Source: Mucilaginibacter rubeus (GTDB taxonomy: Bacteria > Bacteroidota > Bacteroidia > Sphingobacteriales > Sphingobacteriaceae). Taken from it: DNA of 64,000 nucleotides. This document shows, in pieces, positions 21,052-39,878 of this stretch. Both the position numbers and the translations under genes were made by a program. Positions within the stretch are counted from its first letter, which is position 1; every line of letters begins with the position of its first letter. Under the pieces are notes generated by a model. It saw only the letters and a program-made list of their open reading frames with translations. It made no database searches and was not told where the DNA came from. The stretch is from contig NZ_BMKD01000002.1 of assembly GCF_014643835.1 (NCBI RefSeq), positions 372,001 to 436,000 of the forward strand, given 5' to 3'.

Positions 21052-23328
21052 CTACTTCAACACCGAGACCGCTTTGTTAGCTTCCCCAACGCCCCAAACA
21101 GTACCGGGCTTATCGCCCATGGTAATTACCAGTTCACCGCCTTGCATCACATCAGTGTGCTTGATATAAGTTTTGGTGTAATTAGCTCCATTAAGCGTCA
21201 TGGCCTGGATATACTTATTTTTAGGGCCATTATTTTTAACTACTACATGGAATTTCTTGTTTCCCTGCAATTGCAGTGTAGCCTCGTTAACCACCGGGCT
21301 GCCAAATACGTACAGGCCGTTAGCCGGGTTAACCGGATAAAAACCAACTGCGGATAACACGTACCAGGCCGACATCTGGCCAACATCTTCGTTACCGATA
21401 ATACCATCTGGTTTATCTGTATAAAAATCATCAAGGATGAACCTTACCTTTTCGGCTGTCTTCCATGGCTTGCCTGAGTAAGCATAATAGTAGCTCATCG
21501 GGTGGCTTGGCTCGTTACCGTGGGCATACTGACCTATCAAACCAGATACATCCGGCGATTTAAATTTACCCATATCGCCTTGCGCAATAAATAATGAATC
21601 GAGCTTGGTATTGAATTTATCAACGCCACCCAGCATATCAATCAAACCTTCCACATCCTGCGGAACAAGGAAGGTATATTGCCAGCCGTTGCCTTCGGTA
21701 AAGTCGCCGGTTTCATGGATAGAAATGAACGGGCTGTAAGGTGTACGCCATGCATCCTGCGATAAACGGCCACGCATGAAGCCTGCTTTGGCGTCATAGT
21801 AGTTTTTGTAATAAGCGCCGCGTTTGCTGAAGTAAGCATAGTCTTCTGTTTTGCCTAATTTTTTGGCTACCTGTGCCAGGCTCCAATCGTCAATGGCATA
21901 TTCAAGACCCATTGAAACTGATTCCCGGCTACTATCTGCCGGGATATAACCATATTTTTTCACATATTTGATACCACGGTCATCGCCCATAGCGGTGGTT
22001 TTCATGGCCTCGTAAGCTAAATTGGCATCAAAGCCTTTATAACCTTTTAAGAGAGCATCGGCTACAACAGGTACTGCGCTGTAGCCCACCATACAATTGG
22101 TTTCATTAGCCATCAAATGCCAAACCGGCAAACTGCCCTGTTGCTGGTAGATAGCCAGCATAGAGTTGATCATATCATTCACATGCTCCGGGTGGATAAT
22201 GGTTGACAACGGGTTGTTGGAGCGATACGTATCCCATAATGAAAAGGTGGTTACATTATTGAAACCTTCGTTTTTGTGCACCTTTTTATCGGTTCCCCAG
22301 TATTCGCCATTTACATCGTTAAAAATAGACGGCGCTATCATAGTGTGATAAAAAGCTGTATAAAACTTCTTCATCTGAGACAATGAATCAGCTTTGATCA
22401 CAATTTTCTGGAATTGCTTATTCCAGGCTGCATCGGCATCTGTAACAACTTTATTGAAATCCCAGCCCGGGATCTCCGCCTTAATATTAAGCATGGCATT
22501 TTCTGCGCTTACCGGCGAGATTCCCACTTTAGCATAAACCACTTCACCTTTGGTGGTAGTAAAACTGATTACGCCTTTTACCTTTTCCCCTTTTAGCTCA
22601 GTACCTTTAACGTTGGCCGTACTGTCATAAACCGCGAAAATTTTAATGGGCTTTGAAAACACGGCAGTAAAGTAAATACGCTGATCATCTGCCCAGCCTT
22701 TGGAAAAGCGGTAGCCGCAAATGGTATTCTTGTCAACCTGTTTAATATAGGTTTCCATTGGCCTGTCCCAGCCGATGCCTTCCTGCAAATCAATAAGGAT
22801 GTGAGCATCTTTTGACGCCGGGAAAGTGTACTTATGCATACCAACACGGGTACTGGCAGTAAGCTCAACGCCGATATCATATTTTTTAAGCTTTACTTTA
22901 TAATATCCGGGTTTTACAACCTCATCCTTGTGGCTGAATAGCGATACATAACCACTTTTTAAATTCTTGTTGCTGCCTTTGTATACGTTGATTGGCCCGG
23001 TTGTTGGCATGAAGGAAATATCGCCTAAATCGCCGATACCGGTACCGCTAAGGTGTGTATGCTGAAAGCCGATAATGGTTGAATCGGAAATGTGATAACC
23101 AGAGCACCAGTCCCAACCTTCAGATATATTGGTTGGGCCTAACTGCACCGCACCAAAGGGAACGCTTGCACCAACAAAAACGTGACCGTGGAAACCGGTA
23201 CCGATATATGGATCGACATATTGCGTTAAACCACTCACCTTTTTCATAGGCTGCGATTGGTGCCTTTGTGCCTGAGAGCTTAAATTAACCAAGGCCAGTA
23301 AACTGGCCAAAACGAGTTGCTTTTTCAT
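21052..23328 (-). CDS. Secreted GH92-family alpha-mannosidase
   Basis: 758 residues with a signal peptide (MKKQLVLASLLALVNLSSQA, cleavage near 20). The whole chain is of GH92 type: YVDPYIGTGFHGHVFVGASV (about 38-57) with PFGAVQLGP just after, GWDWCSGYH, then in the (alpha/alpha)6 part WDTYRSNNPLSTI, YKGFDANLAYEAM, EGNGWQYTFLVPQDVEG and GNEDVGQMSAWYVL near the end, the last carrying the usual acidic pair. GH92 enzymes are calcium-dependent exo-alpha-mannosidases, mostly acting on alpha-1,2 or alpha-1,3 mannose of N-glycans. It is the last of the minus-strand hydrolase genes; a strong terminator follows it. Confidence 0.95.
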   Translation of the reverse strand: MKKQLVLASLLALVNLSSQAQRHQSQPMKKVSGLTQYVDPYIGTGFHGHVFVGASVPFGAVQLGPTNISEGWDWCSGYHISDSTIIGFQHTHLSGTGIGDLGDISFMPTTGPINVYKGSNKNLKSGYVSLFSHKDEVVKPGYYKVKLKKYDIGVELTASTRVGMHKYTFPASKDAHILIDLQEGIGWDRPMETYIKQVDKNTICGYRFSKGWADDQRIYFTAVFSKPIKIFAVYDSTANVKGTELKGEKVKGVISFTTTKGEVVYAKVGISPVSAENAMLNIKAEIPGWDFNKVVTDADAAWNKQFQKIVIKADSLSQMKKFYTAFYHTMIAPSIFNDVNGEYWGTDKKVHKNEGFNNVTTFSLWDTYRSNNPLSTIIHPEHVNDMINSMLAIYQQQGSLPVWHLMANETNCMVGYSAVPVVADALLKGYKGFDANLAYEAMKTTAMGDDRGIKYVKKYGYIPADSSRESVSMGLEYAIDDWSLAQVAKKLGKTEDYAYFSKRGAYYKNYYDAKAGFMRGRLSQDAWRTPYSPFISIHETGDFTEGNGWQYTFLVPQDVEGLIDMLGGVDKFNTKLDSLFIAQGDMGKFKSPDVSGLIGQYAHGNEPSHPMSYYYAYSGKPWKTAEKVRFILDDFYTDKPDGIIGNEDVGQMSAWYVLSAVGFYPVNPANGLYVFGSPVVNEATLQLQGNKKFHVVVKNNGPKNKYIQAMTLNGANYTKTYIKHTDVMQGGELVITMGDKPGTVWGVGEANKAVSVLK

Positions 23329-23395
23329 TCTTTATTTAAATGATGGTATTGAGGCTTATTTTGTTGCCAATTAAACCTCAATACTTGATAGATTA

Positions 23396-25513
23396 TTAAT
23401 AAACGCTTAATTCGGCTACGGTAATACCATTGCCTGCAATTACATGTGCGGCTTCAAATTTTAAATAACGTGCGCTAACCTCCTGCTTTAATGCTACAGG
23501 CTGCTCAATTGGATTCGATTTGATATTTGAGAATTCGCCCGATGCCACCTTTTCCCAGGTTTTGCCATCTTTACTGACATAAAACACATAGCTATCAACA
23601 ATGCCCTCGGCCTGTTTATCCTGCCTTGGCAAATAGCCAAATGCTTTTATCTTTTGCTCTTTACCCAAATCAACGCTGATCTGCTGCGGGAATTGCGCAT
23701 CTTCTTTTTTCAGCGTGCTATAAAGGCTGCCGGTATTTTCATCAAAGGCATTTTCGGCCTTGTTCCATTGGTCATTAGCCGCAGTGGCATCCAGTACTTT
23801 CCAATTGGTTTTAGCAAAGCCGAATGATGCATAAGCGCTTTCACTTTGTTGATTTTTACCTTCAAAGCTCCGGGCTTTTACTACTCCGCCCTCATTAAGC
23901 ACAAACGGCTTAGTATAAACCGGAGAGCTCGATGTTGGCTCATGCCCGTCAAGCGTATAGCGTATAGCGCTTACCGGCGCTTCGGTGGTAATACTAATCT
24001 CTCCTTTTTTATTGCGTGATACTTTTGGTGCTGTTAAATGCACCGGCTCTTTATATATCCCGAAATCACTCAATGCAATTGCCACCGGCGAAGCAGTAAC
24101 CCTCAACCTCAGTTTGCTTGCGGTGATATTTTGGGTTAAGCGGATAAGCCTGTTACCGCCAATGCTGGTAGCTTCGCCTATTTGCTCCCATTTGCCATTT
24201 AAATAAGCATCCACGGCAACGGCTTCAATACGCTGCCCAAGCTTAATATTTTCGCGCAGGCGGATCACGTTAAATGTTTTTGGCGAATGCAGGTCGATAG
24301 TTAAAGTTGGGGTAGTTACTTTATCGTCAGTTGCCCAATAGCTGTAACGGTTGTCATCTACTAAAAACTGCGGACCGAACTTGGCTTTGTTACCGCCACG
24401 CACATTACTTGCAGTAAGCGTAGCGCCTTTTGCCAAATTAACCGCGAAGGTTTGTTTAAGCAGGTTGCCGAACTCGGTTAATGATTTAACATCAATTTCA
24501 TTAATAATACCACGAGGATCGGGAGATAAACCCAAATCAAGCGCTGCACCACGGCCTACGCTTTTATAATAAAGATCAAGCAAGGTATAAGGCGATTTTA
24601 CACCTTCATCCTGCGTTTTATGGTAAAACCATCCGGGGCGTAACGATACGTCGCACTCGGCAGGCATCCAGTATCTGCCGTTGCGGGTACCTTCAGTGCC
24701 TTCGTAGTCTTTCACATAACCATTGGCGGGAACTTTCCCTTCATCAGGTGCATGTGGCGTGTAAGTAGCCCAGCAGGTTTCGCCCGCATGGCCTTCCTCA
24801 TTGCCTACCCAACGCACATCCGGGCCAACATCGCCAAATAAAACAGCATTTGGTTGTAATTTGCGGGTAATGGCCCAGGTAGTATCCCAGCCATAATAAG
24901 TTGAGCGGTCAATTTTTCGTACTTCGCGCTTGCCGCCATAGTAACCATCGCCGCCATTGGCACCATCATGCCATGAAATAAACAGTGGACCGTAATTGGT
25001 ATACAGCTCTTTCAATTGCGCACGATAGGTCTTTACATATTCTGCAGTACCATAATTAGGATTATTCCTGTCCCATGGCGAGCAGTAAACACCCAGTTTC
25101 ATGCCGAGTTTATCGCAAGCTTCGCGATATTCTTTCAGCATATCGCCCTTACCATTTTTATAAGGGCTTTTGGTGATATTGTGCTCCGTAGTTTTAGTTG
25201 GCCAAATACAAAAACCATCGTGGTGTTTGGCAACCACAACTACACCCTTAAAACCGCCGGCTTTTGCGGCTGCCACAATCTGCAGTGCACTAAACTGCGA
25301 TGGGTTAAAAATCTTTGGGTCTTCATCGCCAAAGCCCCACTCCTTGTTGGTATAAGTATCAACGCCGTAATGGATAATGCAATACATCCCGGTTTCCTGC
25401 CAGTTAAGCTGCCCTTGTGTAGGCAATACGCCATAAGGTTTAGGAGCAGTTTGGCCGAAACCGTTTAAACCGGCCGTAAGTAATAATAAGGCAATGCCTG
25501 TAAACTTCTTCAT
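23396..25513 (-). CDS. Secreted GH29 alpha-L-fucosidase with accessory C-terminal domains
   Basis: 705 residues from the ATG at 25513, which gives a clean signal peptide (MKKFTGIALLLLTAGLNGFG). A longer in-frame reading would run into the GH20 gene upstream. The GH29 catalytic barrel covers about 25-345: VVVVAKHHDGFCIWPTKT, KLGVYCSPWDRN, and the expected nucleophile Asp in LFISWHDGANGG. Then come a discoidin-like segment (about 350-485), a chitobiase C-terminal type segment (IRYTLDGHEPTSSSPVY, about 510-570), and a second discoidin-like domain to the end. It removes alpha-fucose, with alpha-1,3/1,4 links the usual target of this branch. It lies 16 bases after the GH20 gene and is probably translated from the same message. 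Confidence 0.92.
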   Translation of the reverse strand: MKKFTGIALLLLTAGLNGFGQTAPKPYGVLPTQGQLNWQETGMYCIIHYGVDTYTNKEWGFGDEDPKIFNPSQFSALQIVAAAKAGGFKGVVVVAKHHDGFCIWPTKTTEHNITKSPYKNGKGDMLKEYREACDKLGMKLGVYCSPWDRNNPNYGTAEYVKTYRAQLKELYTNYGPLFISWHDGANGGDGYYGGKREVRKIDRSTYYGWDTTWAITRKLQPNAVLFGDVGPDVRWVGNEEGHAGETCWATYTPHAPDEGKVPANGYVKDYEGTEGTRNGRYWMPAECDVSLRPGWFYHKTQDEGVKSPYTLLDLYYKSVGRGAALDLGLSPDPRGIINEIDVKSLTEFGNLLKQTFAVNLAKGATLTASNVRGGNKAKFGPQFLVDDNRYSYWATDDKVTTPTLTIDLHSPKTFNVIRLRENIKLGQRIEAVAVDAYLNGKWEQIGEATSIGGNRLIRLTQNITASKLRLRVTASPVAIALSDFGIYKEPVHLTAPKVSRNKKGEISITTEAPVSAIRYTLDGHEPTSSSPVYTKPFVLNEGGVVKARSFEGKNQQSESAYASFGFAKTNWKVLDATAANDQWNKAENAFDENTGSLYSTLKKEDAQFPQQISVDLGKEQKIKAFGYLPRQDKQAEGIVDSYVFYVSKDGKTWEKVASGEFSNIKSNPIEQPVALKQEVSARYLKFEAAHVIAGNGITVAELSVY

Positions 25514-25529
25514 AATTGGTATCAGATAA

Positions 25530-27824
25530 TTAGTTTTTGAACCATGATGACGGCACATCCTGTGGGGCCGAGCCATTAACACTATATTTCAGCAACAGCT
25601 TAAAGCCGCCACCGCCTTCAATAAAATCAAGCTTAAATGGATGCGCACCCATTTTTAGGGCAACCTGTCCGCTGCGTTCCTGCGCCGAGTGATTACCATC
25701 GTTATCTACAACGGTTTTATCACCAATGTACAGTACCCCGCCATCATCGCAGGTTAAATAAAAGCTGTAAATACCGTCAGTTGGCACATCTATATAGCCT
25801 TTGTAAGTGATTCCAAATGACGGAGCTTTAACCGTCGCAGGTACTTCTATTTTATCAGTACTAAACGTGCTGTCAACCTTTGCATTTTGCATTAACGCAG
25901 TCTTTTTAAAGAAAGCCTTATAATAAGTAGCTGTAAGCCCGGGTTTAGGTGGAGCAATTTTTACCGGACCAAGCATTTGCTGTTGTGTGTAGTTCAAATT
26001 ATAAACATCACCACGTGTCCCGGTTGGTGTAAACGCGGCAACCCTTACCAATTCCGACTTTGAAATAGTTAATGGAGATGGCAATACAGGTGATTTAGCA
26101 TCTGGCAAAGTACCATCGGTAGTATAGCGGATAGTCAAGCTTGGTAATGGAGACGCGATGCTTAGCTTGCCTTCATCGGTGAAAACATACTGGTTAAGCA
26201 AATTTGGCAGATCGGGCAAACGATAATTGATCTTCATAGCGTCCATTCTTTTATATTGTTGAGTTAAACGCTGCAGATATGAATCGTATTCACTTTCCTT
26301 ATGCGTCCACAGCATTTCAGACAATGCGGTTAAACGTGGCATATACATATAATCGGCACGTTTTTCTGAAGGAATCATTTCTGACCAGAGATTAGCCTGC
26401 GCACCAATGATTGATTTTGCTTCTTCGGCATTCAGCACTTTAGGCACCGGGTTAAAATGATACACTTTGCTAACAGAATACTGATCGGGCTGATTATCAA
26501 AATAAAGAGGTTCGCCGGGCGTCATGACCACGGTATTACCATTCTTAACAGCTTTAACCGGTGCATCAGGTACCCAGGTACGCCAGTACATGATAATAGC
26601 TGTAGGGCTAATACCACCTTCAATCACCTCATCCCAACCAATCAACTTACGACCTTTGGAATTGAAGAATTTCTCCATACGGTTAATAAAATAACTGTGC
26701 AAGCCGGCCAGGTCTTTAATACCTTCTTTAGCCATCAGGGCTTTACAAGCATCTGATTTGCCCCAATTGGTGCGATCAACCTCATCGCCGCCAATGTGGA
26801 TATATTTTGACGGGAAGATCTGCATGATCTCGGTAAACACATTCTCGGCAAACTCAAAGGTGCTTTCGTTACACGGGCAGATTGGTTTGGTGAACAATTC
26901 GCCCCATTTATTTTCGCCATCGCAGGTTAAAAAGGGATATGAGTTAATGGCAGCCATCATGTGCCCCGGCATGTCAATTTCCGGAACGATATCGATATGT
27001 CTTGCTGTGGCATAAGCTACTACACCTTTCATCTCGTCCTGGGTATAAAAACCACCGTACATGGTTTTACCGTTTTTTTGAACGATGTGCTCTTTATCGA
27101 TCACAAAATCGGGATTATCCTTAGCCTTTTTCATACAGGCCGAGTCCTGGTTATTGAACGTACGCCATGCACCGGCTTCGGTAAGCAGCGGGTATTTTTT
27201 TATTTCGATGCGCCATCCCTGGTCGTCAGTTAAATGGAGGTGCAGCTTGTTCATTTTATACAAAGCCATCCTGTCAATAAACTTTTTCAGGTAGCTAACC
27301 GAAAAAAAGTGCCTCGATACATCCAAATGCATACCGCGCCATTCGTAAACAGGTGCATCCTCTATAGCAACAACCGGCAATGACAATTGCTTTTGCACCA
27401 CTCCCGCTTCAACGCCCACTGGTAATAATTGGCGAATGGTTTCTACCGCATGAAACACACCTGCCGGATCTTTCGCGCGGATAACCACCTGCTCTTTAGT
27501 AACACTCATGCGATAAGCTTCGGGAGTAGTTATGCTTGCATCATAAACAAGATTTATGGCGTGGGCTTTCTTTACCTTGCTCACTTCAATAGGCGTACCT
27601 AAACCTTTGCGCAACAAATCCTTCAAGGCATAAGCTTCGGTATTAAAAGCGCCGGCATTTACAATAGCCGTTTTAGAGGTGATAGTAAATGAGCCCTCTC
27701 CCGCAGTTAATTGGGCAGGATAAGGTATCAACGGAAATTTCGACGCCGTTTCCTGGGCATTAACACCACTTGTACAGGCAAGCAATAATGCTGCAGCCGA
27801 CAAATATTTTGAAATAGTCTTCAT
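25530..27824 (-). CDS. Secreted GH20 beta-N-acetylhexosaminidase with PA14 domain
   Basis: 764 residues with a signal peptide (SAAALLLACTSGVNA, cleavage near 23; the Cys at 17 could also make it a lipoprotein). Order: GH20 N-terminal alpha/beta domain (about 28-155), catalytic barrel (about 157-505) with HLHLTDDQGWRIEIKKYP and the Asp347-Glu348 pair in HIGGDEVDR that drives substrate-assisted cleavage, a chitobiase C-terminal type segment (TIRYTTDGTLPDAKSP), then a PA14-like beta domain (GLTATYYKAFF, DGIYSFYLTCDDGGVLYIGD). It removes terminal beta-GlcNAc or GalNAc. It is 13 bases after the GH2 gene and 16 before the GH29 gene, so the three form a tight unit. Confidence 0.95.
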   Translation of the reverse strand: MKTISKYLSAAALLLACTSGVNAQETASKFPLIPYPAQLTAGEGSFTITSKTAIVNAGAFNTEAYALKDLLRKGLGTPIEVSKVKKAHAINLVYDASITTPEAYRMSVTKEQVVIRAKDPAGVFHAVETIRQLLPVGVEAGVVQKQLSLPVVAIEDAPVYEWRGMHLDVSRHFFSVSYLKKFIDRMALYKMNKLHLHLTDDQGWRIEIKKYPLLTEAGAWRTFNNQDSACMKKAKDNPDFVIDKEHIVQKNGKTMYGGFYTQDEMKGVVAYATARHIDIVPEIDMPGHMMAAINSYPFLTCDGENKWGELFTKPICPCNESTFEFAENVFTEIMQIFPSKYIHIGGDEVDRTNWGKSDACKALMAKEGIKDLAGLHSYFINRMEKFFNSKGRKLIGWDEVIEGGISPTAIIMYWRTWVPDAPVKAVKNGNTVVMTPGEPLYFDNQPDQYSVSKVYHFNPVPKVLNAEEAKSIIGAQANLWSEMIPSEKRADYMYMPRLTALSEMLWTHKESEYDSYLQRLTQQYKRMDAMKINYRLPDLPNLLNQYVFTDEGKLSIASPLPSLTIRYTTDGTLPDAKSPVLPSPLTISKSELVRVAAFTPTGTRGDVYNLNYTQQQMLGPVKIAPPKPGLTATYYKAFFKKTALMQNAKVDSTFSTDKIEVPATVKAPSFGITYKGYIDVPTDGIYSFYLTCDDGGVLYIGDKTVVDNDGNHSAQERSGQVALKMGAHPFKLDFIEGGGGFKLLLKYSVNGSAPQDVPSSWFKN

Positions 27825-27837
27825 TGTCTTCTTTTTG

Positions 27838-30510
27838 TTATTTGCCGATAGATATAGTACGTTCTGTTAGGTTCCAGCCTCCAATAGTTACTGCAAGGTT
27901 TTTATCTGCACCTGGATTATGGTCGATAACAACTTTTTTAGTTTGTCCCGGCAATACCGTTACATAATTATCACTGTAAAAGGCCGGGAGGACGCGTTGT
28001 TTCGTATCAGCATTAACTAAAGACAGGCGGTTGAAAAATGCAAGCGCGCCATTACCTTCGTTGGTCAGCGTTACCTCAACCTTGCCGTTCTTTAAATATT
28101 TAGCTGTTGCACCTAAATTACCTTTAGGCATTTTTTGTAAGCCCGAGAAATCTCCGTTAGCATCAGGTAACCAGTAAATATTCTCGCTAATTACTTCTTT
28201 ATCTGATTTAAGCAATTGCAGGCAAAGGAAAACACCTTTGTCTTTTGCTTCTTTATCAATCTCTTTTTTCAGCGATAAATAGCGCTTAGTAGTAGTTGGT
28301 GTAACATCGGCAAAAACCTTCGTTAGTACTTTCTCCTTGCCATCCATATCATAGGTTTTGGCTACCAGCAGCATGTTGCTATGCGTTTTAAATGTATTGT
28401 TGGCTACCATTACCATACCATCCGTTTGGTTATACATGATGTGTAAAGGCTCGCTGCCGTTATGCAAACCGTAAAGACAACCGTTAGGATCAAGATAATA
28501 ATCATACATCTGGCCGCGCATGGCTGTCCATGGGTTTTGGGTTTTCCAGATGATGGTGCCGGTATACCAATCCCACATATGTGAACTGAAGCCTTCCATT
28601 AGCGCGCGGTACTGATCATAATTTACCAGCTGTGCTTTGGTTGCGAAGTCTTCCACATTTTTGGCTTTCCCGTATTTATCAATAAATCCGTCATAGCCGA
28701 TATATTTATGATACTCCCAAACCGGGTCTGTTTTAGTTTTGCCGGTAGATGCATCAAACTCAGGCACAACCATATTTTCGGCAGGAATAAAGCGTTTTAA
28801 CGATTCATAATCGCTAACCCCAACTGAGCCGACTTCCGAGTTGAACGGATAAGTTTGATGATCCCAGAAAGTTGTGAGGCTTTGGATTCCGTAAGGACCA
28901 TCGCCGTTGCCGGCCTGTACATTGCGCGACATTTCTTCGGAGTTTGAATACGGGATAAACCAACGGGTATTATCGAGCTTAGGCATAATGGTATCACGCA
29001 GGGCCGCAAAAATATCTTCGGGCGGAGTGATCTCATTACCACCACACCAGATAGCAAGCGATGGGAAGTTACGCACCAGTTTAACCTGATCGGCAACCGA
29101 TTTTAAATACAGGTCATGATCATCAGGGTATTTGCGGCGGGTCCATTGGTCATCAGCCTTCATCGGATCTATCCAGCGACCATTACAATCACCGGATCCC
29201 CACATATCCTGAAAAACAAGCATCCCATATTTATCGCAAGCCTCATAAAACTCAGGGCGTTCAATCAGCGCACCGCCCCAAACCCTGATCAGGTTCAGGT
29301 TCATATCACGATGAAAACGAACTTCGGCATCATAACGGGCATCGCTGAAACGAAGCATCTGATCGGAGATAATCCAGTTGCCGCCTTTAATAAAGATCTT
29401 TTGACCGTTTATGTTAACCTGGCGACTTTCCGTTTTATTGTTCCACTCGGTAGTGATCTGGCGTACACCAACTTCGATATTCTTTTGGTCGGATACTTTA
29501 CCACTTGCCACAAACTGCAAATTCAGCTTATACAAATTTTGCGGACCGTAGCCATTAGGCCACCAAAGCTTTGGACTTTTAAGGTTGTAATCGGACAGTT
29601 TAACTTCCTGTTTTGAATTAGCTTTTATTGTAACGGGCTGTGATACCAGCTTGCCATCTAAATTATATTGTAAAGTACCGCTTACTGCAACACCTGTAGC
29701 GTTTTCAACCTCGGCAGATACCTGTATAATAGCAGGCTGCTGTGCACCTTCGGGCTTGCGAACACCCGGTACTAACGTTACCACATGCGGGTCTTTAATA
29801 ACCACCGCGCCAGTATGCTCAATGGTCACTTTATCCCAGATACCTGTATTGCGGTCGCGGATGGGCTGGATCCAGTCCCACCCTGCTGTGTATTGGATAC
29901 CTACGCCGCGAGCAATAGTACCATCACCGCCCTGACCGCCGTTAGGGTTACCAACAACATCAGGAGGGTATACTACAACTGCCAAACGGTTATTGCCATT
30001 TTTACTAAGCCATTTGGTAATGTTATAGCTCTGGCGTAAAAACATGCCTTTATGCAATTTGTTGTTAAGTTTATGCCCGTTCAAGAAAACATCGCAGCTA
30101 TAGTTTACACCACGAAAATTAAGGTAAGTTTGATTGCTGCCGGTTGGCGCGGCCTCTTTAAAATCTTTGGCGAACCAGTAAGTATAATAATCGCGGCCTA
30201 CCTTATAGATATCAGGGATCTTCTCATTATTCATCCCGTAAAATGGATCAGGTACCTGTTTGTTGGCTACCTGGGTTGTAAGCACCGTTCCAGGCACAAC
30301 TGCAGGATTCCATGCAGCCAGATCATAATTGGCTTGAGATATAATAGTGCCATTATCTTTAACACTATTCATTGACGTACATTTCCAGCCGCTATTAAGC
30401 TCGTAGCTGGTTTGCGCCCCTGCGTTTTGATAAACGCCAGAAGCAAGGACGGATAACACTAATGAAAATTTAAACAATGCAGATCTGCCTGCCGAACGGG
30501 TTGTTGTCAT
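27838..30510 (-). CDS. Secreted GH2-family beta-mannosidase/exo-glucosaminidase-type enzyme
   Basis: 890 residues with a signal peptide (FKFSLVLSVLASGVYQNAGA, cleavage near 32). It has the GH2 layout: jelly-roll N domain (VVPGTVLTTQVANKQVPDP, FRGVNYSCDVFLNGHKL), an immunoglobulin-like domain, a TIM barrel (INGQKIFIKGGNWIISDQML; LNLIRVWGGALIERPEFYEAC; SLAIWCGGNEITPPEDI with the acid/base Glu after Asn; VVPEFDAST with the likely nucleophile Glu), and C-terminal beta domains. This subgroup covers mannosylglycoprotein endo-beta-mannosidase and exo-beta-D-glucosaminidase. In this neighbourhood the former, cutting the core Man-beta-1,4-GlcNAc link of N-glycans, fits best, but that choice is inference. 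Confidence 0.9.
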   Translation of the reverse strand: MTTTRSAGRSALFKFSLVLSVLASGVYQNAGAQTSYELNSGWKCTSMNSVKDNGTIISQANYDLAAWNPAVVPGTVLTTQVANKQVPDPFYGMNNEKIPDIYKVGRDYYTYWFAKDFKEAAPTGSNQTYLNFRGVNYSCDVFLNGHKLNNKLHKGMFLRQSYNITKWLSKNGNNRLAVVVYPPDVVGNPNGGQGGDGTIARGVGIQYTAGWDWIQPIRDRNTGIWDKVTIEHTGAVVIKDPHVVTLVPGVRKPEGAQQPAIIQVSAEVENATGVAVSGTLQYNLDGKLVSQPVTIKANSKQEVKLSDYNLKSPKLWWPNGYGPQNLYKLNLQFVASGKVSDQKNIEVGVRQITTEWNNKTESRQVNINGQKIFIKGGNWIISDQMLRFSDARYDAEVRFHRDMNLNLIRVWGGALIERPEFYEACDKYGMLVFQDMWGSGDCNGRWIDPMKADDQWTRRKYPDDHDLYLKSVADQVKLVRNFPSLAIWCGGNEITPPEDIFAALRDTIMPKLDNTRWFIPYSNSEEMSRNVQAGNGDGPYGIQSLTTFWDHQTYPFNSEVGSVGVSDYESLKRFIPAENMVVPEFDASTGKTKTDPVWEYHKYIGYDGFIDKYGKAKNVEDFATKAQLVNYDQYRALMEGFSSHMWDWYTGTIIWKTQNPWTAMRGQMYDYYLDPNGCLYGLHNGSEPLHIMYNQTDGMVMVANNTFKTHSNMLLVAKTYDMDGKEKVLTKVFADVTPTTTKRYLSLKKEIDKEAKDKGVFLCLQLLKSDKEVISENIYWLPDANGDFSGLQKMPKGNLGATAKYLKNGKVEVTLTNEGNGALAFFNRLSLVNADTKQRVLPAFYSDNYVTVLPGQTKKVVIDHNPGADKNLAVTIGGWNLTERTISIGK

Positions 30511-30740: not shown

Positions 30741-30767
30741 TTGTGGTTATGTGGCTGTTATGAAATA

Positions 30768-32210: not shown

Positions 32211-32388
32211 GCTATTATTTTATTAATTACTGACAATTTTATATGGTGTATTGCTTACACACTTTTTAAAATTTTTTAAAAAACATTGCAACTTACATCA
32301 ATTAATTTCATTTTTCGATTTTAATATGTTATTATTGTTACACCATTATTAAGTTTAAATTTAGTTGATTAATTAAAAAATCTTCGGT

Positions 32389-32988
32389 TTGAGAGACAGA
32401 AAAGTTGATACGCTAAAATTATGGAAACTCATTTGCAACAATGATGACGAGAACGCTTTTGAGTTGTTTTTCCATGTCCTTAACAACTCGCTCATTAAAT
32501 TTTGTGTACTCTACGTACATCAACGGGAGATTGCCGAAGAAATAGTTTCGGACGTGTTTGTAAAATGCTGGCTTAACCGTAAAAACCTTACCGAAATTCA
32601 AAACCCTGAAACCTATTTATTTGTAGCGGTAAAAAACCAATCGCTAAACCACATCAAAAAATACTCAACTATTCACGTTGTACAAATTGAAGAAACCAAT
32701 ACGGTAGAATTTGTAAACACCTATAACCCTCAAAAGGAAATTGAAAACAAAGAGCTTATTTTTAGGATGGACCAGGCCATAGCCGGTTTACCCCAACAAT
32801 GCCGAATTGTTTTCAGACTGATAAAAGAGGATGGTATGAAGTATAAGGAAGTGGCCGAAATTCTTAATATTTCGCCCCGCACGGTACAAACGCAACTTTT
32901 CAGAGCGATCAAGAAGCTTAGTGTCGTTTTGACACAATACAATAAACACCACGAAGTTGTGTTAAAACCAATGCAATCAACATTTTAG
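32389..32988 (+). CDS. ECF RNA polymerase sigma factor
   Basis: 199 residues. The start is a TTG at 32389: an in-frame TAA lies at 32374-32376 and no ATG occurs before region 2. Sigma region 2 is visible at about 20-85 (LIKFCVLYVHQREIAEEIVS, then DVFVKCWLNR) and region 4 at about 125-185 (AIAGLPQQCRIVFRLIKEDG, then YKEVAEILNISPRTVQTQLF). It is of the Bacteroidota group normally paired with FecR anti-sigma factors and TonB receptors. The FecR gene and STN-SusC follow in order, so this sigma probably responds to the glycan taken up through that receptor. Whether it controls both arms of the divergent locus is inference. Confidence 0.92.
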   Translation: MRDRKVDTLKLWKLICNNDDENAFELFFHVLNNSLIKFCVLYVHQREIAEEIVSDVFVKCWLNRKNLTEIQNPETYLFVAVKNQSLNHIKKYSTIHVVQIEETNTVEFVNTYNPQKEIENKELIFRMDQAIAGLPQQCRIVFRLIKEDGMKYKEVAEILNISPRTVQTQLFRAIKKLSVVLTQYNKHHEVVLKPMQSTF

Positions 32989-33082
32989 GGAGCACAATTG
33001 TAATTTTCAATTATTTTTTTTAACCTTGTAAGTAATTAACCTAAATAAGTTGTCCTATCATAAATAAGGATGCAATTATACG

Positions 33083-34180
33083 ATGGGCAATGATAAATTT
33101 ATAGAGTTGGTGGGCAAAAAATTGTCGAATGAAATCAGCTCTGATGAAAATAATGAATTTCAGCGTTGCTTAGCTAATGATGCTTCCCTTCGTGAACAAT
33201 ACGAAGCCCTTTCTGCTTACTGGAAACATAGCGATGCCCAATATGCCGACAATGCCCTCGCCTTTCAAAAAATAAAGTCAAAAATTAAAGCACAGGAAGT
33301 TATTGAACCTGCAGCGGCCATTAACCCCGTTAAAAAGGGCACGATGCATTATCTTTGGCGTGCTGCGGCCGCTGTTGTTTTAATAGCAGGTTGCGCGTAC
33401 CTTTTTTATTCAAAAACAGTTACTTTGGGCCACGGAATTGCAAGCACAACATCCGCCGCCTGGCAAAATAAAAATACGTCTGCCCGCGATAAATCAACCA
33501 TTGTATTAACCGACGGTACACGTATCACTCTTAATTCGCAAAGTTCGTTAAGATATCCAACAAACTTCACAGGCAAAACCCGCGAAGTTTATTTAAGCGG
33601 CGAAGCCTTTTTTGATGTACATAAAGATCATGAACACCCGTTCATTATCCATACCGAAAAAATGAACATTAAGGTGCTGGGTACCGCTTTTAACGTTAAA
33701 TCATACCCCGATGATCCGTCAAGTGAAACAACCCTGATCAGGGGCGCCATTGAAGTTACCCTTGACGACCGGCCATCGGACAGGATCATTTTAAAACCAA
33801 GCGAAAAACTGATTGTTAAAAAGGGCTCGTTTACTACTGTACGTAAAAACCAGGCCAAGCTTTCACCAGCTATCGACAGCAGTGCCGGTACGCAATATGT
33901 CTTAACCAGCTTTACCCGCCTTCACCAGGACGACAGTGCCATTTTAGAAACATCCTGGACACAGAATAAACTCATTTTCAGAGACGAAAGCTTTGCCGAC
34001 CTCGCCATGCGCATGGAACGCTGGTATGGTGTTGAGATCAAATTTAAAAATGATGAAATGAAAAAGTACCGTTTCAGCGGCACTTATGAAAAAGAATCCA
34101 TTACCCAGGCTCTTGACGCATTACGCATTACCGAAGATTTTCATTACAAAATTAAAAACGCTGCCATTTATATCTACTAA
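33083..34180 (+). CDS. FecR-type anti-sigma factor
   Basis: 365 residues. A cytoplasmic N-terminal part (about 1-90) should hold the sigma factor; one membrane segment lies at about 91-112 (WRAAAAVVLIAGCAYLFY); the periplasmic FecR domain follows (STIVLTDGTRITLNSQSSLR, EVYLSGEAFFDVHKD, FIIHTEKMNIKVLGTAFNVK, 135-250); and the C-terminal domain is of the DUF4974 type (LIFRDESFADLAMRMERWY to the end), which should meet the receptor's STN domain. It lies 94 bases after the sigma gene and 188 before the receptor gene. This is the standard three-part transenvelope switch. Confidence 0.94.
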   Translation: MGNDKFIELVGKKLSNEISSDENNEFQRCLANDASLREQYEALSAYWKHSDAQYADNALAFQKIKSKIKAQEVIEPAAAINPVKKGTMHYLWRAAAAVVLIAGCAYLFYSKTVTLGHGIASTTSAAWQNKNTSARDKSTIVLTDGTRITLNSQSSLRYPTNFTGKTREVYLSGEAFFDVHKDHEHPFIIHTEKMNIKVLGTAFNVKSYPDDPSSETTLIRGAIEVTLDDRPSDRIILKPSEKLIVKKGSFTTVRKNQAKLSPAIDSSAGTQYVLTSFTRLHQDDSAILETSWTQNKLIFRDESFADLAMRMERWYGVEIKFKNDEMKKYRFSGTYEKESITQALDALRITEDFHYKIKNAAIYIY

Positions 34181-34368: not shown

Positions 34369-37300
34369 ATGAAAATACGGTTTAGGTTAATATTATTCTT
34401 CAATTTACTGGCTATATTAACTGTATATTCACAAACCCGCGTCACTATCAATTTAAAATCGGCCGATTTTAAAAAGGTGATCTCAGCCATCGAACGTCAA
34501 AGCATTTATCATTTTGTTTACAGCGAAAGAAAAATCCCCACTTTAAACAAAGTTGACGTAGACGTTGATAATGAAGATGTTAAAAGCATTTTAGATAAAA
34601 TTTTGGCCAATTCGGGCTTCGCTTATACCGAGCTTGCCAATCACCTAATAGTAATTGCCCCAATTGATGAAATAGTTAATGTAGTTAAGGTAACGGGCAT
34701 TGTTGTTGATGAAAATGGCGCACCGCTTGCCGGCGCTACAGTTAGGGTAAGAGGGTCAACCATGGGCTCGCTCACTGACGCGAAGGGCGCGTTTTCGCTT
34801 GAAGTACCCTCTGGGTCAACGTTGATAGTGAGTTTTGTAGGTTACATTACAAAAGAGGTAAAACTTAATAACGTTGCAACATTAACTATTCCGCTTACAG
34901 TAAGTAATGTGCTAAACGAGGTAGTTGTAACGGCGCTTGGCATTAACAAGGAACAAAAAAGGGTGGGTTATTCAGTAACAACTATTAGTGGTGAAGTACT
35001 TGATAAAGCCAAGGAATCAAATGTAGCATACTCATTAGAGGGGCGCGTAGCAGGTTTAAGTATCAATGGCATAAACGGCGGACCAGGATCTTCTGCGCGT
35101 ATTTTACTAAGAGGCGTTACAAGTTTTGGTGCAAGCGCGCCACTCTTTATTATTAATGGTGTGCCCATGGATAATACTCAAAGGGGCTCAGCCAATGAAT
35201 GGGGCGGGGCCGACTTTGGCGATGGCATCAGCAATATAAATCCCGACGATGTTGAAAATATGACCGTATTAAAAGGCCAGGCGGCATCGGCACTTTATGG
35301 AGCACGCGCGGCCAATGGCGTAATTTTAATAACTACCAAAACAGGAAAAAAAAACACTCCATTTGGTGTTGAGTTTAATACCAATTATCAAACTGATAAA
35401 GCAATTAATACCTTTGATTATCAAACGCAATACGGCCAGGGTTTGTATGGGATAAGGCCGACTACCGTAACCAATGCAATATCCTCAGGCAACTATGGCT
35501 GGGGCGAAAAACTGGACGGTAAACCCACAATTCAATTTGATGGCGAATATTACCCCTACTCGGCTGTAACAGATAATATCAGTAAATTTTACCGTCGGGG
35601 TTATACTTTTACCAACACTGCTGCATTTAGCGGCGGTAACGACAATGGTAATTTCCGGTTGTCATTATCAAACCTTAGCAACGGCTCAATAGTACGTAAC
35701 AGTGATCTCAACCGCAAAACGTTCAACTTATCGGCAAGTCAAAATGTTACCAAAAAACTGAATATTAATGTTGCAGCTAATTTTATCAACGAAACTTCTA
35801 ATTTAAAACCCAACTTGAGCGATGGGCCTTTTAATGTAAATAACATTCAATACCTGGCAGCCAACGAAGATCAGGCTATCCTTGCGCCTGGTTATGCCCC
35901 AGATGGCAGTGAAATAAGATGGAATAGTGACACCTTTACAACAAATCCTTATTTTACCGTTAACAGGTTTATTAATGATGTAAACCGTAACCGATTAATA
36001 GCTGCATTATCGGGTAAATACAATTTCAATAATTGGCTGTATGCACAGTTGAGGTTGGGCAACGACATCCTTTACGATAAACGAAAAACGGTTACCCCAA
36101 CCGGAACCGCTTATTACGCCGGCGGAACGGGCGGACTTGATGAACAGTCAAACACCCAACGATCTGAACTAAACAGTGACCTGTTAATAGGTGCCAAACA
36201 TGACATCATTCCTAAGGTGCTGAGTTTTGACATATCTGCCGGGACTAACCTACGCAAAAACACATACGAATACACGAAGCTTTTTGGAGGCCCATTCATT
36301 GTACCATATTTTTATAGCTATAATAATTTGAGCATCAAAAGCAGCAACTACAACTATAAAAGTACCGAAACGCATTCGAGCTATTACGCTGTTGATTTTT
36401 CATTCAGAGACTATTTAACCATAACTACTACCGGCCGCTACGATGCCTACTCCACGTTGCCGAGCGATAACCGGAGTATCTTTACGCCTTCGGTATCGGC
36501 AAGTCTTTTATTTTCCGATCTTGTTCATATTCCCAGCCTTGATTTCGGAAAATTGAGGTTATCGTATGCGCAAACGAGCGGCGAGCCAACTGATGCATAT
36601 GTAACAACCCAATATTACACAACAAATTATTCGATAAACGGTATTGCCATCGGCAGTTTCAGCGACAGCCTGCCCAATTTATTTCTTAAGCCTTACACGC
36701 TTACCGAAATGGAAGCAGGTACCGAGCTTAAATTTTTAAACGGCAGGCTTGGAATTGATATAGCCTATTTTCACCGTAAAACAAAAAATGAGATCATTAA
36801 AGGCGACCTTGATCTGGCAACCGGTTTTGCACGGCGGTTTATCCCTACGGGCTCAACCCAAAACAACGGCATTGAAATTGAGCTAAGCGGCTCTTCTGTT
36901 AAAGCAACCGGTTTTACCTGGTCGCCATCGTTTAATTTTACCTATGTACAAAACAAGATCCTTCAAACAGACGGCACTCCCGAGTCGGCAGACATAAGCT
37001 TCGGTACTTACCGCCCGCTAAATGCTGCTACGGCGCTGGTTAAAGGCTTGCCAGGGCCTCAGATTATGGCCAACGATTACCTTAGAAATGATAAAGGACA
37101 GATCATTTTTGACGGAAATGGTTTACCCATGGCCGGCCCGCGTGTACCTATGGGCAGCGCGGTGCCTAATATATACGGTGGATTAAACAACAATTTTGCA
37201 TTTGGCAAACTAAGCCTCTCATTTTTGATCGATTACCGTTTTGGTAATAAGATATTATCGGCTACAAATTATAATAGCATTTACAGGGGCTTTAACCAGC

Positions 37301-37689
37301 TTACCCTTTCAGGCAGGGAAAACGGCGTTATTGGCAATGGCGTAAACAGCAATGGTGAAAAGAACACGATTGCTGTACCTGCCCAAAACTATTACCAGGC
37401 GCTAGCCCAAAATGTATCTGCATTAAATGTGCTTGACGGCAGGTTTATCAAATTACGGCAAGTTACTTTTGGCTATACTTTTTCAAAGGGCTTTCTTAAT
37501 AAAACACCATTTGAAGGCATAACCTTTTCACTGGTAGGCAGAAACTTGTGGACAATTATGAAGCACTCGGCCAATATCGATCCGGAATCTGGATTTTCGC
37601 CGGATATAAAATATGCCGGAATTGAGGGAGCAAGCCTTCCGCCAACCCATACTTACGGAATAAATATTAACTTTAAACTCAAAAAATAA
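34369..37689 (+). CDS. SusC/RagA-family TonB-dependent receptor with STN sensor domain
   Basis: 1106 residues. A signal peptide (residues 1-22) is followed by an STN domain (about 24-98, INLKSADFKKVISAIERQS), which carries signals to FecR; a carboxypeptidase-like domain (about 110-190, VTGIVVDENGAPLAGATVRV); the plug (about 195-325, PLFIINGVPMDN, NINPDDVENMTVLKGQAASA, YGARAANGVILITTKTG); and a long beta-barrel ending in FKLKK. SusC receptors import glycans across the outer membrane, normally with a SusD lipoprotein lid. No susD follows: the next gene, 11 bases on, is a GH3 hydrolase. The barrel therefore works alone or with a SusD encoded elsewhere. Confidence 0.95.
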   Translation: MKIRFRLILFFNLLAILTVYSQTRVTINLKSADFKKVISAIERQSIYHFVYSERKIPTLNKVDVDVDNEDVKSILDKILANSGFAYTELANHLIVIAPIDEIVNVVKVTGIVVDENGAPLAGATVRVRGSTMGSLTDAKGAFSLEVPSGSTLIVSFVGYITKEVKLNNVATLTIPLTVSNVLNEVVVTALGINKEQKRVGYSVTTISGEVLDKAKESNVAYSLEGRVAGLSINGINGGPGSSARILLRGVTSFGASAPLFIINGVPMDNTQRGSANEWGGADFGDGISNINPDDVENMTVLKGQAASALYGARAANGVILITTKTGKKNTPFGVEFNTNYQTDKAINTFDYQTQYGQGLYGIRPTTVTNAISSGNYGWGEKLDGKPTIQFDGEYYPYSAVTDNISKFYRRGYTFTNTAAFSGGNDNGNFRLSLSNLSNGSIVRNSDLNRKTFNLSASQNVTKKLNINVAANFINETSNLKPNLSDGPFNVNNIQYLAANEDQAILAPGYAPDGSEIRWNSDTFTTNPYFTVNRFINDVNRNRLIAALSGKYNFNNWLYAQLRLGNDILYDKRKTVTPTGTAYYAGGTGGLDEQSNTQRSELNSDLLIGAKHDIIPKVLSFDISAGTNLRKNTYEYTKLFGGPFIVPYFYSYNNLSIKSSNYNYKSTETHSSYYAVDFSFRDYLTITTTGRYDAYSTLPSDNRSIFTPSVSASLLFSDLVHIPSLDFGKLRLSYAQTSGEPTDAYVTTQYYTTNYSINGIAIGSFSDSLPNLFLKPYTLTEMEAGTELKFLNGRLGIDIAYFHRKTKNEIIKGDLDLATGFARRFIPTGSTQNNGIEIELSGSSVKATGFTWSPSFNFTYVQNKILQTDGTPESADISFGTYRPLNAATALVKGLPGPQIMANDYLRNDKGQIIFDGNGLPMAGPRVPMGSAVPNIYGGLNNNFAFGKLSLSFLIDYRFGNKILSATNYNSIYRGFNQLTLSGRENGVIGNGVNSNGEKNTIAVPAQNYYQALAQNVSALNVLDGRFIKLRQVTFGYTFSKGFLNKTPFEGITFSLVGRNLWTIMKHSANIDPESGFSPDIKYAGIEGASLPPTHTYGININFKLKK

Positions 37690-37700
37690 ATCATCTAAAA

Positions 37701-39878
37701 ATGGCTTCCACCATAAAACACAAACTCCTATGTTGTTTGGTAATGCTTACGGCATTACTAAAATTTTCTACCACAAATGCACAAGCTCCTTTTTATAAAG
37801 ACGGTTCGCAATCGATTGATTCACGCGTAAAAGATCTTTTATCGAAATTAACCATCGAAGAAAAAATCTCCTTATTAGGCTACCGCAGCCAGGCCGTGCC
37901 ACGTTTAGGCATCCCTGCCTATAACTGGTGGAACGAGGCTTTGCATGGCGTAGCCCGTGCCGGTGAAGCTACCATATTCCCACAGGCTATCGGGATGTCG
38001 GCTACATTTAATGAAGATCTGTTAAAACAGGTATCAACGGCAATATCAACTGAAGCCCGTGCAAAATATAACCTGGCCATTGCACAAGACAGGCACCTGC
38101 AATACATGGGACTTACCTTTTGGACGCCCAACATCAATATTTTCCGCGATCCGCGCTGGGGACGCGGGCAGGAAACTTATGGCGAAGACCCTTTCCTGAC
38201 CGGCCGTATGGGCTCAGCTTTTGTTAAAGGTTTGCAGGGCGATGATCCTAAATACCTGAAAACATCTGCCACGGCCAAACACTTTGCCGTACACAGCGGC
38301 CCCGAAGCCACCCGCGATAAATTTGACGCTAAGGTTGATGAAAAAGACCTTCGCGAAACCTACCTGTATGCTTTTCACGAACTGGTTAAAAACCACGTTG
38401 AATCGGTAATGAGCGCCTACAACCGTGTTAACGGTGTACCAAACTCTATCAATAAAATGCTACTTACCGACATTCTGCGGAAAGAATGGGGCTTTAACGG
38501 CCATGTAGTAACCGACTGTGGTGCCCTGGATGATGTGTACCTTACTCACAAAACACTACCAACTGCGGTTGAAGTAGCCGCTGCTGCCATCAAGGCTGGC
38601 GTTGACCTGGATTGCTCGTCCATTTTGCAGAACGATGGTATTAAAGCTATTAAACAAGGCCTGCTTACCGAAAAAGATGTTGACCAGGCCCTGAGCGCTA
38701 TCTTACGCACCGAATTTAAACTGGGTTTTTATGACGACCCGGCCGCTAATCCTTATCATGGTTACGGCGCCGACAGTGTTCACAATGAACAACATTTGGC
38801 TTTGGCCCGTAAAGTGGCCCAGCAAAGCATGGTATTGTTAAAGAATAACAACAATGTTTTGCCATTCAAAAAAAGCAGCTACTCCAGCATTATGGTGGTT
38901 GGGCCAAACGCGGCCTCGCTCGATGCCATGATAGCAAATTACCACGGTACCAGCAGCAAAGTGATCAATTTTGTTGAGGGTATTACCGGCGCGGTTGATA
39001 AAGCTACCCGCGTTGAATATGACCTTGGATGTGATTATAAAGATACCACTCATTTTGGCGGCACCTGGGCTGCGGGTAATGCTGATGCTACTATTGCTGT
39101 CATAGGCCTCTCCCCCGTTTTGGAAGGCGAAGCAGGCGATGCTTTCCTGTCTGAAAGTGGCGGCGATAAAAAAAACCTGAGCCTGCCTGCCAGCGAAATT
39201 GCCTTTATGAAAGAACTGCGCAAAAGCGTAAAAAACAAGCCCCTTGTAGCAGTAATAACCGCAGGCAGCGATGTTGACATATCCGCTATTGAGCCTTATG
39301 CCGATGCCATTATATTTGCCTGGTACCCCGGCGAACAGGGGGGTAATGCATTAGCTGATATTATTTTTGGCGATGTTTCGCCTTCGGGCCACCTGCCGCT
39401 TACTTTTTATAAAGACATGAGCAATTTACCCGACTACAGCGATTACAATATGAAAAACCGCACTTACCGTTATTATACCGGTCCGGTGCAATATCCTTTT
39501 GGTTTTGGTTTAAGCTATACGTCGTTTAACTACACCCTGGGCAGTAAATTAAAAACCACCTACAAAAAAACCGATACCCTTGCAGTAACAGTAAACGTTA
39601 AAAACACCGGTAAATTTAATGGTGATGAAGTAGTGCAGGCGTATATTAAATATCCCAACATCGACAGGATGCCTGTTAAAGAATTAAAAAGCTTTAAACG
39701 CATAAGCCTGGAGCAGGATAAAGAAGGTACCGTTACTTTGAAAATCCCTGTTCAGGATTTACAGAAATGGGACCTTGCCACACACAAATGGAAGCTTTAT
39801 CCCGGCAGCTACAAAATAGTACTGGGCAGCAGCTCGGCCGATGAAAAGTTGGTAGCTGATTTCAAGATATCTAATTAA
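37701..39878 (+). CDS. Secreted GH3 glycosidase, beta-xylosidase-like subgroup
   Basis: 725 residues with a signal peptide (residues about 1-28). GH3 (alpha/beta) barrel: YNWWNEALHGVA (74-85) and TIFPQAIGMSATFN (91-104), wording typical of the beta-xylosidase/arabinofuranosidase branch; the nucleophile is Asp272 in HVVTDCGALDD. Second domain about 385-580 (QQSMVLLKNNNNVLPF, YPGEQGGNALADIIFG) and fibronectin-III-like end about 640-720. The start follows the SusC stop by 11 bases, so it is co-transcribed. In plant N-glycans a core beta-1,2-xylose would be a fitting target, but beta-glucosidase or xylan-type activity cannot be excluded from sequence alone. Confidence 0.93.
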   Translation: MASTIKHKLLCCLVMLTALLKFSTTNAQAPFYKDGSQSIDSRVKDLLSKLTIEEKISLLGYRSQAVPRLGIPAYNWWNEALHGVARAGEATIFPQAIGMSATFNEDLLKQVSTAISTEARAKYNLAIAQDRHLQYMGLTFWTPNINIFRDPRWGRGQETYGEDPFLTGRMGSAFVKGLQGDDPKYLKTSATAKHFAVHSGPEATRDKFDAKVDEKDLRETYLYAFHELVKNHVESVMSAYNRVNGVPNSINKMLLTDILRKEWGFNGHVVTDCGALDDVYLTHKTLPTAVEVAAAAIKAGVDLDCSSILQNDGIKAIKQGLLTEKDVDQALSAILRTEFKLGFYDDPAANPYHGYGADSVHNEQHLALARKVAQQSMVLLKNNNNVLPFKKSSYSSIMVVGPNAASLDAMIANYHGTSSKVINFVEGITGAVDKATRVEYDLGCDYKDTTHFGGTWAAGNADATIAVIGLSPVLEGEAGDAFLSESGGDKKNLSLPASEIAFMKELRKSVKNKPLVAVITAGSDVDISAIEPYADAIIFAWYPGEQGGNALADIIFGDVSPSGHLPLTFYKDMSNLPDYSDYNMKNRTYRYYTGPVQYPFGFGLSYTSFNYTLGSKLKTTYKKTDTLAVTVNVKNTGKFNGDEVVQAYIKYPNIDRMPVKELKSFKRISLEQDKEGTVTLKIPVQDLQKWDLATHKWKLYPGSYKIVLGSSSADEKLVADFKISN

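Follow-up and report, generated by a model that had tools for sequence, protein, structure and literature searches.

A divergent hydrolase locus of Mucilaginibacter as the probable core of a dispersed N-glycan regulon with a shared promoter-like motif

We analysed a 64-kb stretch of Mucilaginibacter DNA (the window, hereafter always at its full length) that contains a divergent locus in which five glycoside hydrolase (GH) genes on the minus strand, GH92-GH29-GH20-GH2-GH29, stand opposite a run of genes for an extracytoplasmic function (ECF) sigma factor, FecR, an STN-domain SusC and GH3. Quite probably, the locus forms the core of a dispersed, ECF-controlled regulon for foraging on N-glycans, to which it contributes the regulatory genes and the exo-hydrolases. 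What is new is a candidate promoter motif of fixed spacing, TGTARGCAA-N14-TTGTC, that in related genomes appears to link the cluster to genes outside it for a release enzyme, a glycan importer and another regulator. A wider reading is put forward tentatively, as something short of probable: an uptake SusC would have parted from its SusD to become a dedicated sensor, one ECF factor and promoter code would run a chromosome-wide regulon (sensor, exo-hydrolases, importer, surface release enzyme and second regulator) and a bacterial GH2_17 enzyme would cut the glycan core. All nine genes were confirmed at their listed coordinates and assigned to families with Pfam (Table 1), in agreement with an earlier reading of the letters alone (the sequence-only reading), which had described these five hydrolases facing the ECF-FecR-STN-SusC-GH3 run across a 178-base gap.

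Homologous loci (labelled L) were collected by a search with the GH2 protein, in which Mucilaginibacter ranked top; 80 of 389 confirmed loci were kept, and related genomes are labelled G. The whole gene order recurs in nine of the 80 loci (L001-L005, L007, L011, L019 and L069, hereafter window-type), and the arrangement is therefore not a matter of chance. Alignment of the divergent gap from 17 sequences (the window and 16 loci) revealed two blocks, TGTARGCAA and TTGTC, with 14 bases between them; the gap is 176-179 bases wide in the nine window-type loci and 202-460 bases in the seven others. A perfect copy of the motif, a candidate ECF promoter for the hydrolase operon, has its first base 49 bases upstream of the listed start of the first hydrolase gene, GH29-A. 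The copy between the ECF and FecR genes of the window has one mismatch, as do those at the same position in L001-L005 and L069, and there are two mismatches in L007, L011 and L019. A match to a looser pattern (N8-22) at 18608-18584 on the minus strand, with a spacing of 11, was dropped as off-spacing. A scan for sigma-70 promoters and terminators gave counts equal to the shuffle level and was uninformative.

The same motif recurs across genomes in front of a small set of transcription units. We scanned 34 related genomes, taken from the 80 loci and picked to span ECF-bearing and ECF-less clusters, and found 48 perfect matches in 21 of them, compared with 7 for a reversed-pattern control. By coordinates, 45 of the 48 can be assigned: 16 to the GH29-A operon, 13 to SusC-SusD, 5 to FecR, 4 to GH2, 4 to an Endo H-type GH18 gene and 3 to a ROK regulator gene, with the SusC sites of G013 and G015 assigned because they lie next to the ECF gene and have a spacer resembling that of G014. 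The other three (G006:C9, G032 and G039) fall within open reading frames. When 46 distinct sites across all the fetched loci, some of them fetched for their motif, were checked by script, the result was GH29-A 15, GH2 5, SusC 10, FecR 6, Endo H 4, ROK 3 and unassigned 3; the 34-genome scan is the unbiased count. Motif presence follows the sigma factor: perfect matches occur in 19 of the 20 genomes with an ECF orthologue (63% identity or more) versus 2 of the 14 without, in both of which they lie inside open reading frames (Fisher p = 2e-6, not a true probability because the genomes are related). With one mismatch allowed, the nine window-type relatives yield 99 matches, 25 of which are perfect, and the reversed pattern yields 38; chance may therefore account for about half of the one-mismatch matches, and they were used only where they recur upstream of the same gene.

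The ROK gene is preceded by the motif at 0-1 mismatch in all eight window-type relatives fetched (perfect in G008, G012 and G018; with one mismatch allowed in G001, G002, G004, G005 and G006). For G003, a similar sequence is among the matches listed, and this genome is left out of the count. ROK proteins often bind DNA in sugar regulons, and with the ROK gene itself among the targets, the motif might be the site of such a regulator, leaving the ECF sigma factor to govern its own operon alone. However, two blocks at a fixed 14-base spacing upstream of transcription units look like a promoter, and their presence tracks the ECF orthologue. Six scanned genomes moreover have a ROK gene within the GH2 cluster (L017, L018, L030, L053, L066 and L074), and four of them lack the motif while the other two have one inside an open reading frame. 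We consider control by another regulator improbable and retain the ECF factor as the candidate reader of the motif. Two further observations concern motif distribution. In L233 (6536-7590) and L234 (6123-7190), a one-mismatch motif precedes a gene for a 311-amino acid protein, which in L233 has no Pfam match, followed by a gene for a weakly PAP2-like protein; this unit is a possible further regulon member. In L006, L008 and L009 the hydrolases are opposed by GH3, there is no ECF, FecR or SusC of the window kind, and the genomes have no perfect motif.

The sequence-only reading had described the locus as lacking its release enzyme and had proposed searching the rest of the genome for GH18, GH85 or PNGase genes and for a second sus-like locus. 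Within the window the absence stands, as searches with Endo H and PNGase F found nothing there (tblastn, E 1e-5). However, seven of the nine window-type relatives encode an Endo H-type GH18 elsewhere, always on another contig than the GH2 cluster, and all seven genes carry the cluster motif upstream with 0-1 mismatch. The protein is lipoprotein-like, matches Endo H with 330 bits and has a C terminus that matches beta-gamma-crystallins; it occurs in 23 of 40 genomes (E 0.001), in some as fragments or tail domains only. We inspected 18 Endo H upstream regions, leaving out G027, G029, G036 and G038. All eight ECF-positive genomes with an intact gene (G001-G004, G008, G012, G018 and G020) have the motif at 0-1 mismatch, 196-300 bases upstream, whereas the best fit in all six ECF-negative genomes (G007, G009, G010, G016, G017 and G035) has 4-5 mismatches. 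This contrast exists despite similar Endo H proteins (80-82% for G007 and G009, 77-82% for G008, G012, G018 and G020). There are five mismatches each in G033, whose ECF match is only 53%, and in G026 and G028, which lie outside the set compared for the ECF gene.

Other candidate release enzymes were rejected: PNGase F (PF09113) occurs in 4 of 40 genomes and in none of the nine window-type ones, PNGase A (PF12222) in none of 40, and GH85 (PF03644) in 2 of 40, as weak matches that both lie within GH18 genes. Other GH18 genes are present in all 12 genomes searched, and the Endo H-type alone was followed. In G018, G008 and G012 (L124, L121 and L122), one motif copy is followed by tandem Endo H-like and other GH18-like genes.

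The second predicted target outside the cluster is an importer. The locus is a cluster of carbohydrate-active enzyme genes with its own regulator (six GH genes plus ECF/FecR), but it does not contain the neighbouring SusC-SusD pair of a polysaccharide utilization locus (PUL): SusC stops at 37689 and GH3 starts 11 bases later, at 37701, leaving no SusD between, and a SusD search of the window gave no match (tblastn, E 1e-5). The receptor, which matches the NCBIfam model OMP_RagA_SusC with 583 bits, follows the ECF and FecR genes consecutively in a FecI/FecR/FecA-type layout. SusC proteins of ECF-controlled PULs bear STN domains for anti-sigma signalling (PMC7782687, in excerpt). In a tree of 30 SusC proteins (29 loci and the window, the partial L172 having been removed beforehand), 10 have STN without SusD, 7 have both and 13 have SusD without STN, and the ten SusD-less proteins make up one side of a branch with 100/100 support. 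By Pfam, the SusC proteins of the window, L002 and L022 have an STN domain, and those of L143 and L147 lack one.

The nine other genomes of this SusD-less group each encode a single SusD with close similarity to the L053 query (63-73% identity; next matches 41% or less), and in all nine its gene lies in another operon. Four regions were read completely (L142, L143, L144 and L147); the SusD gene there belongs to a SusC-SusD-FG-GAP-PAP2 operon, and a perfect motif precedes the SusC start by 265-282 bases. A motif before SusC was also located by script in G001, G003, G012 and G018 (L178, L200, L224 and L220) and by coordinates in G004. The distance between this motif and the one at the GH29-A promoter is 22 kb in G008, G012 and G018, about 35-43 kb in G001, G003 and G004, and 1.7 Mb in G005; in G002 and G006 the two are on different contigs. 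At its right end (57.6-64.0 kb), the window runs collinear with the sequence flanking the second operon in G008 and G018 and, in reversed sense, in G006; no such collinearity was seen in G001 and G002. The second-operon motif of G008 and G018 lies about 11-13 kb past the base that matches the window's end, and on this collinearity the window's own SusC-SusD copy could lie just outside. The collinear stretch itself (57602-63998) encodes an M19 dipeptidase and a D-serine-dehydratase-like protein.

The simplest reading of this arrangement suggests that sensing and transport are split between two SusC proteins under one sigma factor. The SusD-less protein might instead still transport, with a borrowed SusD or none, and not be a dedicated sensor. 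It keeps its barrel and plug domains and shares 57-63% identity with the SusD-paired SusC proteins of four sisters (L142, L143, L144 and L147), and FecA of Escherichia coli transports and signals alike (PMC11658791, in excerpt). Against this, the absence of SusD is confined to one clade, and a second SusC-SusD is retained under the same motif. We regard continued transport as a serious contender, if rather less than an even one, and keep the split of sensing from transport as our working reading.

N-glycan breakdown, the substrate class named by the sequence-only reading, is probably right and is the best supported for this cluster, given the enzyme families, the GH2 residues and the related clusters. 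At family level, enzymes are present for antennary N-acetylglucosamine (GlcNAc; GH20), alpha-mannose (GH92) and the Man-beta-1,4-GlcNAc linkage (GH2). The claim that the set is complete does not hold: no beta-galactosidase, sialidase or alpha-1,6-mannosidase was found among the cluster's genes, and GH125 lies outside the cluster in the sisters. Homologous clusters supply further context. GH125 lies inside L027, L030 and L053 (the L030 protein matches solved BT3781 with 586 bits), and among the 80 loci a glucosamine-6-phosphate deaminase-like/PIG-L protein occurs in 8, an MFS transporter in 13 and a ROK protein in 13. GH125 and GlcNAc-catabolic genes are consistent with what a diet of N-glycans would require, namely the use of mannose and GlcNAc, and the arrangement recalls that of nix plus nag in Xanthomonas (PMC5700972, in excerpt). 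A GH125 gene is present in 39 of 40 related genomes; the window has no match to GH125 or ROK queries (tblastn, E 1e-5). If the GH2 were endo-acting like plant GH2_17, the missing GH125 would be a lesser gap.

The GH2 assignment is based on active-site residues. Among solved proteins, the enzyme is closest to the exo-glucosaminidase CsxA (250 bits), and alignment by eye places Asn-Glu where CsxA has Ser-Asp and Trp411 where it has Glu. N492, E493, W411 and the nucleophile E559 are kept in all 80 sequences (79 from the loci and the window). Ser-Asp with Glu characterizes GH2_16, and Asn-Glu with Trp the mannosidase subfamilies GH2_13 and GH2_17; the characterized GH2_17 members are all plant enzymes, none bacterial (PMC12243196, in excerpt). 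An exo-beta-D-glucosaminidase of GH2_16 is ruled out by these replacements, and although the Asn-Glu and Trp signature found here is also that of GH2_13, its combination with a CsxA-like sequence points to GH2_17 by elimination. An AlphaFold model (mean pLDDT 68, below 50 around N492-E493 and E559) was not used.

Among the other hydrolases, GH92 best matches the solved BT3130 (618 bits) and BT3965 (607 bits), compared with 374 bits for 2wvx of the alpha-1,2 enzyme group. The BT3130/BT3965 clade is alpha-1,3-specific or mixed, except BT3965 (PMC5930347, in excerpt), and the window enzyme is probably of the alpha-1,3 type. GH29-B matches Akkermansia 8AYR over its full length (655 bits); the relevant paper reports Lewis a/x-epitope activity for the enzyme structurally described as AmGH29D, and its data statement ties 8AYR to AmGH29A (PMC10067855, in excerpt). 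For GH29-A, neither the closest solved entries nor a literature look-up allowed a linkage specificity to be assigned. Sequence inspection suggests that both GH29 starts are listed too early, the likely ones being ATG near 25513 (GH29-B) and at 32207 (GH29-A). The hydrolases are called secreted from N-terminal signal-like stretches judged by eye. GH3, which the sequence-only reading omitted from its list of bonds, scores best with the NCBIfam model Xyl3A (786 bits, under its cut-off of 1250), with BglX at about half (359 bits); this xylosidase-like sequence points to plant-type glycans, and a GH3 enzyme of Bacteroides massiliensis takes beta-1,2-xylose off plant N-glycans (PMC9522356, in excerpt).

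The same features bear on two other substrates. Animal (mammalian-type) complex N-glycans would call for GH29, GH20, GH92 and GH2 steps that they have in common with plant N-glycans; however, the cluster has no sialidase or beta-galactosidase, its GH3 is xylosidase-like, and several relatives are plant-associated, judged by their names, all of which leaves an animal-type target very improbable. Alternatively, the enzymes might serve another glycan of mannose, GlcNAc, fucose and xylose (a plant, fungal or bacterial heteropolysaccharide), the resemblance to N-glycan breakdown being accidental. GH29 and GH92 are broad families, and GH3 relatives outside the genus sit in different neighbourhoods, which do not bear out this GH3 family as N-glycan-specific. 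Yet the motif is shared with the Endo H-type GH18, which is N-glycan-specific by its closest solved relatives, and GH125 and GlcNAc-catabolic genes lie within homologous clusters. We judge such another glycan unlikely and N-glycans the probable target. A separate observation concerns nine Dyadobacter loci (L058, L060, L062, L064, L065, L067, L070, L078 and L080), in which this GH2 stands close to genes of one family, represented by that of L067 and assigned through it to the GlcNAc-2-epimerase family, the other hydrolases being absent.

Several findings weigh against an ECF-controlled N-glycan regulon. G027 is ECF-positive yet has no perfect motif, two of the six closest genomes (G005 and G006) have no Endo H gene, and in ECF-positive G021 the Endo H-like gene is broken and has no motif in its flank (4 mismatches). 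The sisters' GH125 adjoins none of the listed motif matches. None of the other hydrolases was seen near GH3 relatives at 46-50% identity (8 of 8 places), and two Mucilaginibacter genomes (G154 and G271) have a 71-78% identical GH3 apart from the GH2 cluster. Endo H acts on high-mannose and hybrid glycans, a poor fit to xylosylated, core-fucosylated complex glycans; because of this mismatch, the substrates of the regulon may be a mixture of N-glycans from plants, fungi or insects.

From the families and gene order, the motif and its placement, its co-occurrence with the ECF gene and the missing SusD, we infer the following scheme. An N-glycan or glycopeptide would bind STN-SusC at the outer membrane, and the STN domain would signal via FecR to free the ECF sigma factor, which would then transcribe operons bearing the motif. 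Its putative targets at the locus are GH29-GH2-GH20-GH29-GH92 and FecR-SusC-GH3. In sisters they would also comprise the separate SusC-SusD-FG-GAP-PAP2 operon as glycan importer and, elsewhere, the Endo H-type lipoprotein for glycan release and the ROK regulator; by analogy, these three would be expected in the window's own genome. In the periplasm, GH29-B would take antennary fucose, GH20 GlcNAc, GH92 alpha-1,3-mannose, GH3 beta-1,2-xylose and GH29-A core fucose, and GH2 would cleave Man-beta-1,4-GlcNAc.

Table 1 Features of the locus, in window coordinates
Feature	Position	Strand	Evidence
GH92 alpha-mannosidase, probably alpha-1,3 type	21052..23328	-	Pfam 592 bits
GH29-B alpha-1,3/4-fucosidase with F5/8C (discoidin) domain	23396..25582	-	Pfam
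GH20 beta-N-acetylhexosaminidase	25530..27824	-	Pfam 382 bits; best solved match 6q63, 389 bits
GH2, predicted GH2_17-type, for Man-beta-1,4-GlcNAc of the N-glycan core	27838..30510	-	Residues and Pfam
GH29-A alpha-L-fucosidase, possibly core fucose; first gene of operon	30768..32210	-	Pfam 327 bits
Divergent intergenic region, 178 bases	32211..32388	.	Between GH29-A and ECF sigma
Perfect TGTARGCAA-N14-TTGTC, candidate ECF promoter of hydrolase operon	32232..32259	-	Motif match
ECF sigma factor, candidate motif reader	32389..32988	+	Pfam, NCBIfam TIGR02985
One-mismatch motif copy upstream of FecR-SusC-GH3	33027..33054	+	Between ECF and FecR
FecR anti-sigma factor	33083..34180	+	Pfam FecR and FecR_C
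SusC-like TonB-dependent receptor with STN domain, lacking a SusD; candidate glycan sensor	34369..37689	+	Pfam STN, Plug, barrel
GH3, beta-xylosidase-like	37701..39878	+	NCBIfam; closest solved 7zb3 beta-xylosidase

The locus DNA is 91.6% identical to that of M. gossypii (L002) over 21.9 kb aligned and 80-85% identical to L001, L003, L004, L005 and L069; the identity to M. gossypii indicates that the window probably comes from a sister species. The carrier of the cluster is a soil and plant bacterium. Parts of the locus recur within 10 kb of GH2 (tblastn, E 1e-15) as SusC in 40 of the 80 loci, GH29-A in 33, GH92 in 31, GH20 in 27, FecR in 22, GH3 in 21, GH29-B in 19 and ECF in 18, counts that include some contig-truncated loci and some matches to distant paralogues. 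Elsewhere in the window, the minus strand encodes both EutC and EutB, subunits of ethanolamine ammonia-lyase, together with an amino acid permease (50380-54201), a protein combining MGH1-like and GH63 C-terminal glycoside hydrolase domains, which belongs to none of the operons described above (55625-58225), a 330-amino acid protein whose match to a Hint module is below threshold (12380-13372; 27.1 versus 29.7 bits) and a protein that partly matches the photosynthetic reaction-centre cytochrome C family (11473-11967). The plus strand encodes a BlaR1-type M56 peptidase with a TonB plug-like domain at its C terminus (17327-19183).

The motif gives ECF/FecR glycan sensing a candidate promoter code that can be tested, and it could uncover scattered regulon members that cluster-based annotation overlooks. 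It also offers an account of an N-glycan cluster without its own release enzyme and SusD, and the locus makes a genomic case for the role of bacterial GH2_17 enzymes. The search listings and abstract openings of the literature contained no description of the motif, of a Mucilaginibacter N-glycan locus or of a SusD-less STN-SusC glycan sensor.

Comparison with known systems shows familiar components in a different arrangement (the following sources being cited in excerpt). Like the nix/nag system of the proteobacterium Xanthomonas campestris, the predicted regulon would combine a TonB-dependent receptor with N-glycan hydrolases and the uptake and use of GlcNAc (PMC5700972); there, receptor and hydrolases share one nix cluster, whereas here ECF/FecR and the motif would join separate operons, with the candidate release enzyme elsewhere. 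The plant N-glycan pathway of B. (Phocaeicola) massiliensis likewise draws on GH92, a GH3 beta-1,2-xylosidase, a GH29 core fucosidase and GH20 from several loci, but uses PNGase release and a GH2 beta-galactosidase (PMC9522356), as opposed to the absence of PNGase F from the nine window-type genomes and a mannosidase-like GH2. The high-mannose loci PUL72 and PUL16 of B. thetaiotaomicron also have an ECF sigma/anti-sigma pair, SusC/SusD and a surface GH18 endo-beta-N-acetylglucosaminidase (PMC11180146); the last two are inside each PUL there, and outside the cluster but sharing its motif here. Finally, the STN-bearing receptor, FecR and ECF sigma factor resemble FecA-FecR-FecI signalling (PMC11658791, PMC7782687), with a probable glycan signal in place of ferric citrate and an STN-bearing SusC that has no SusD.

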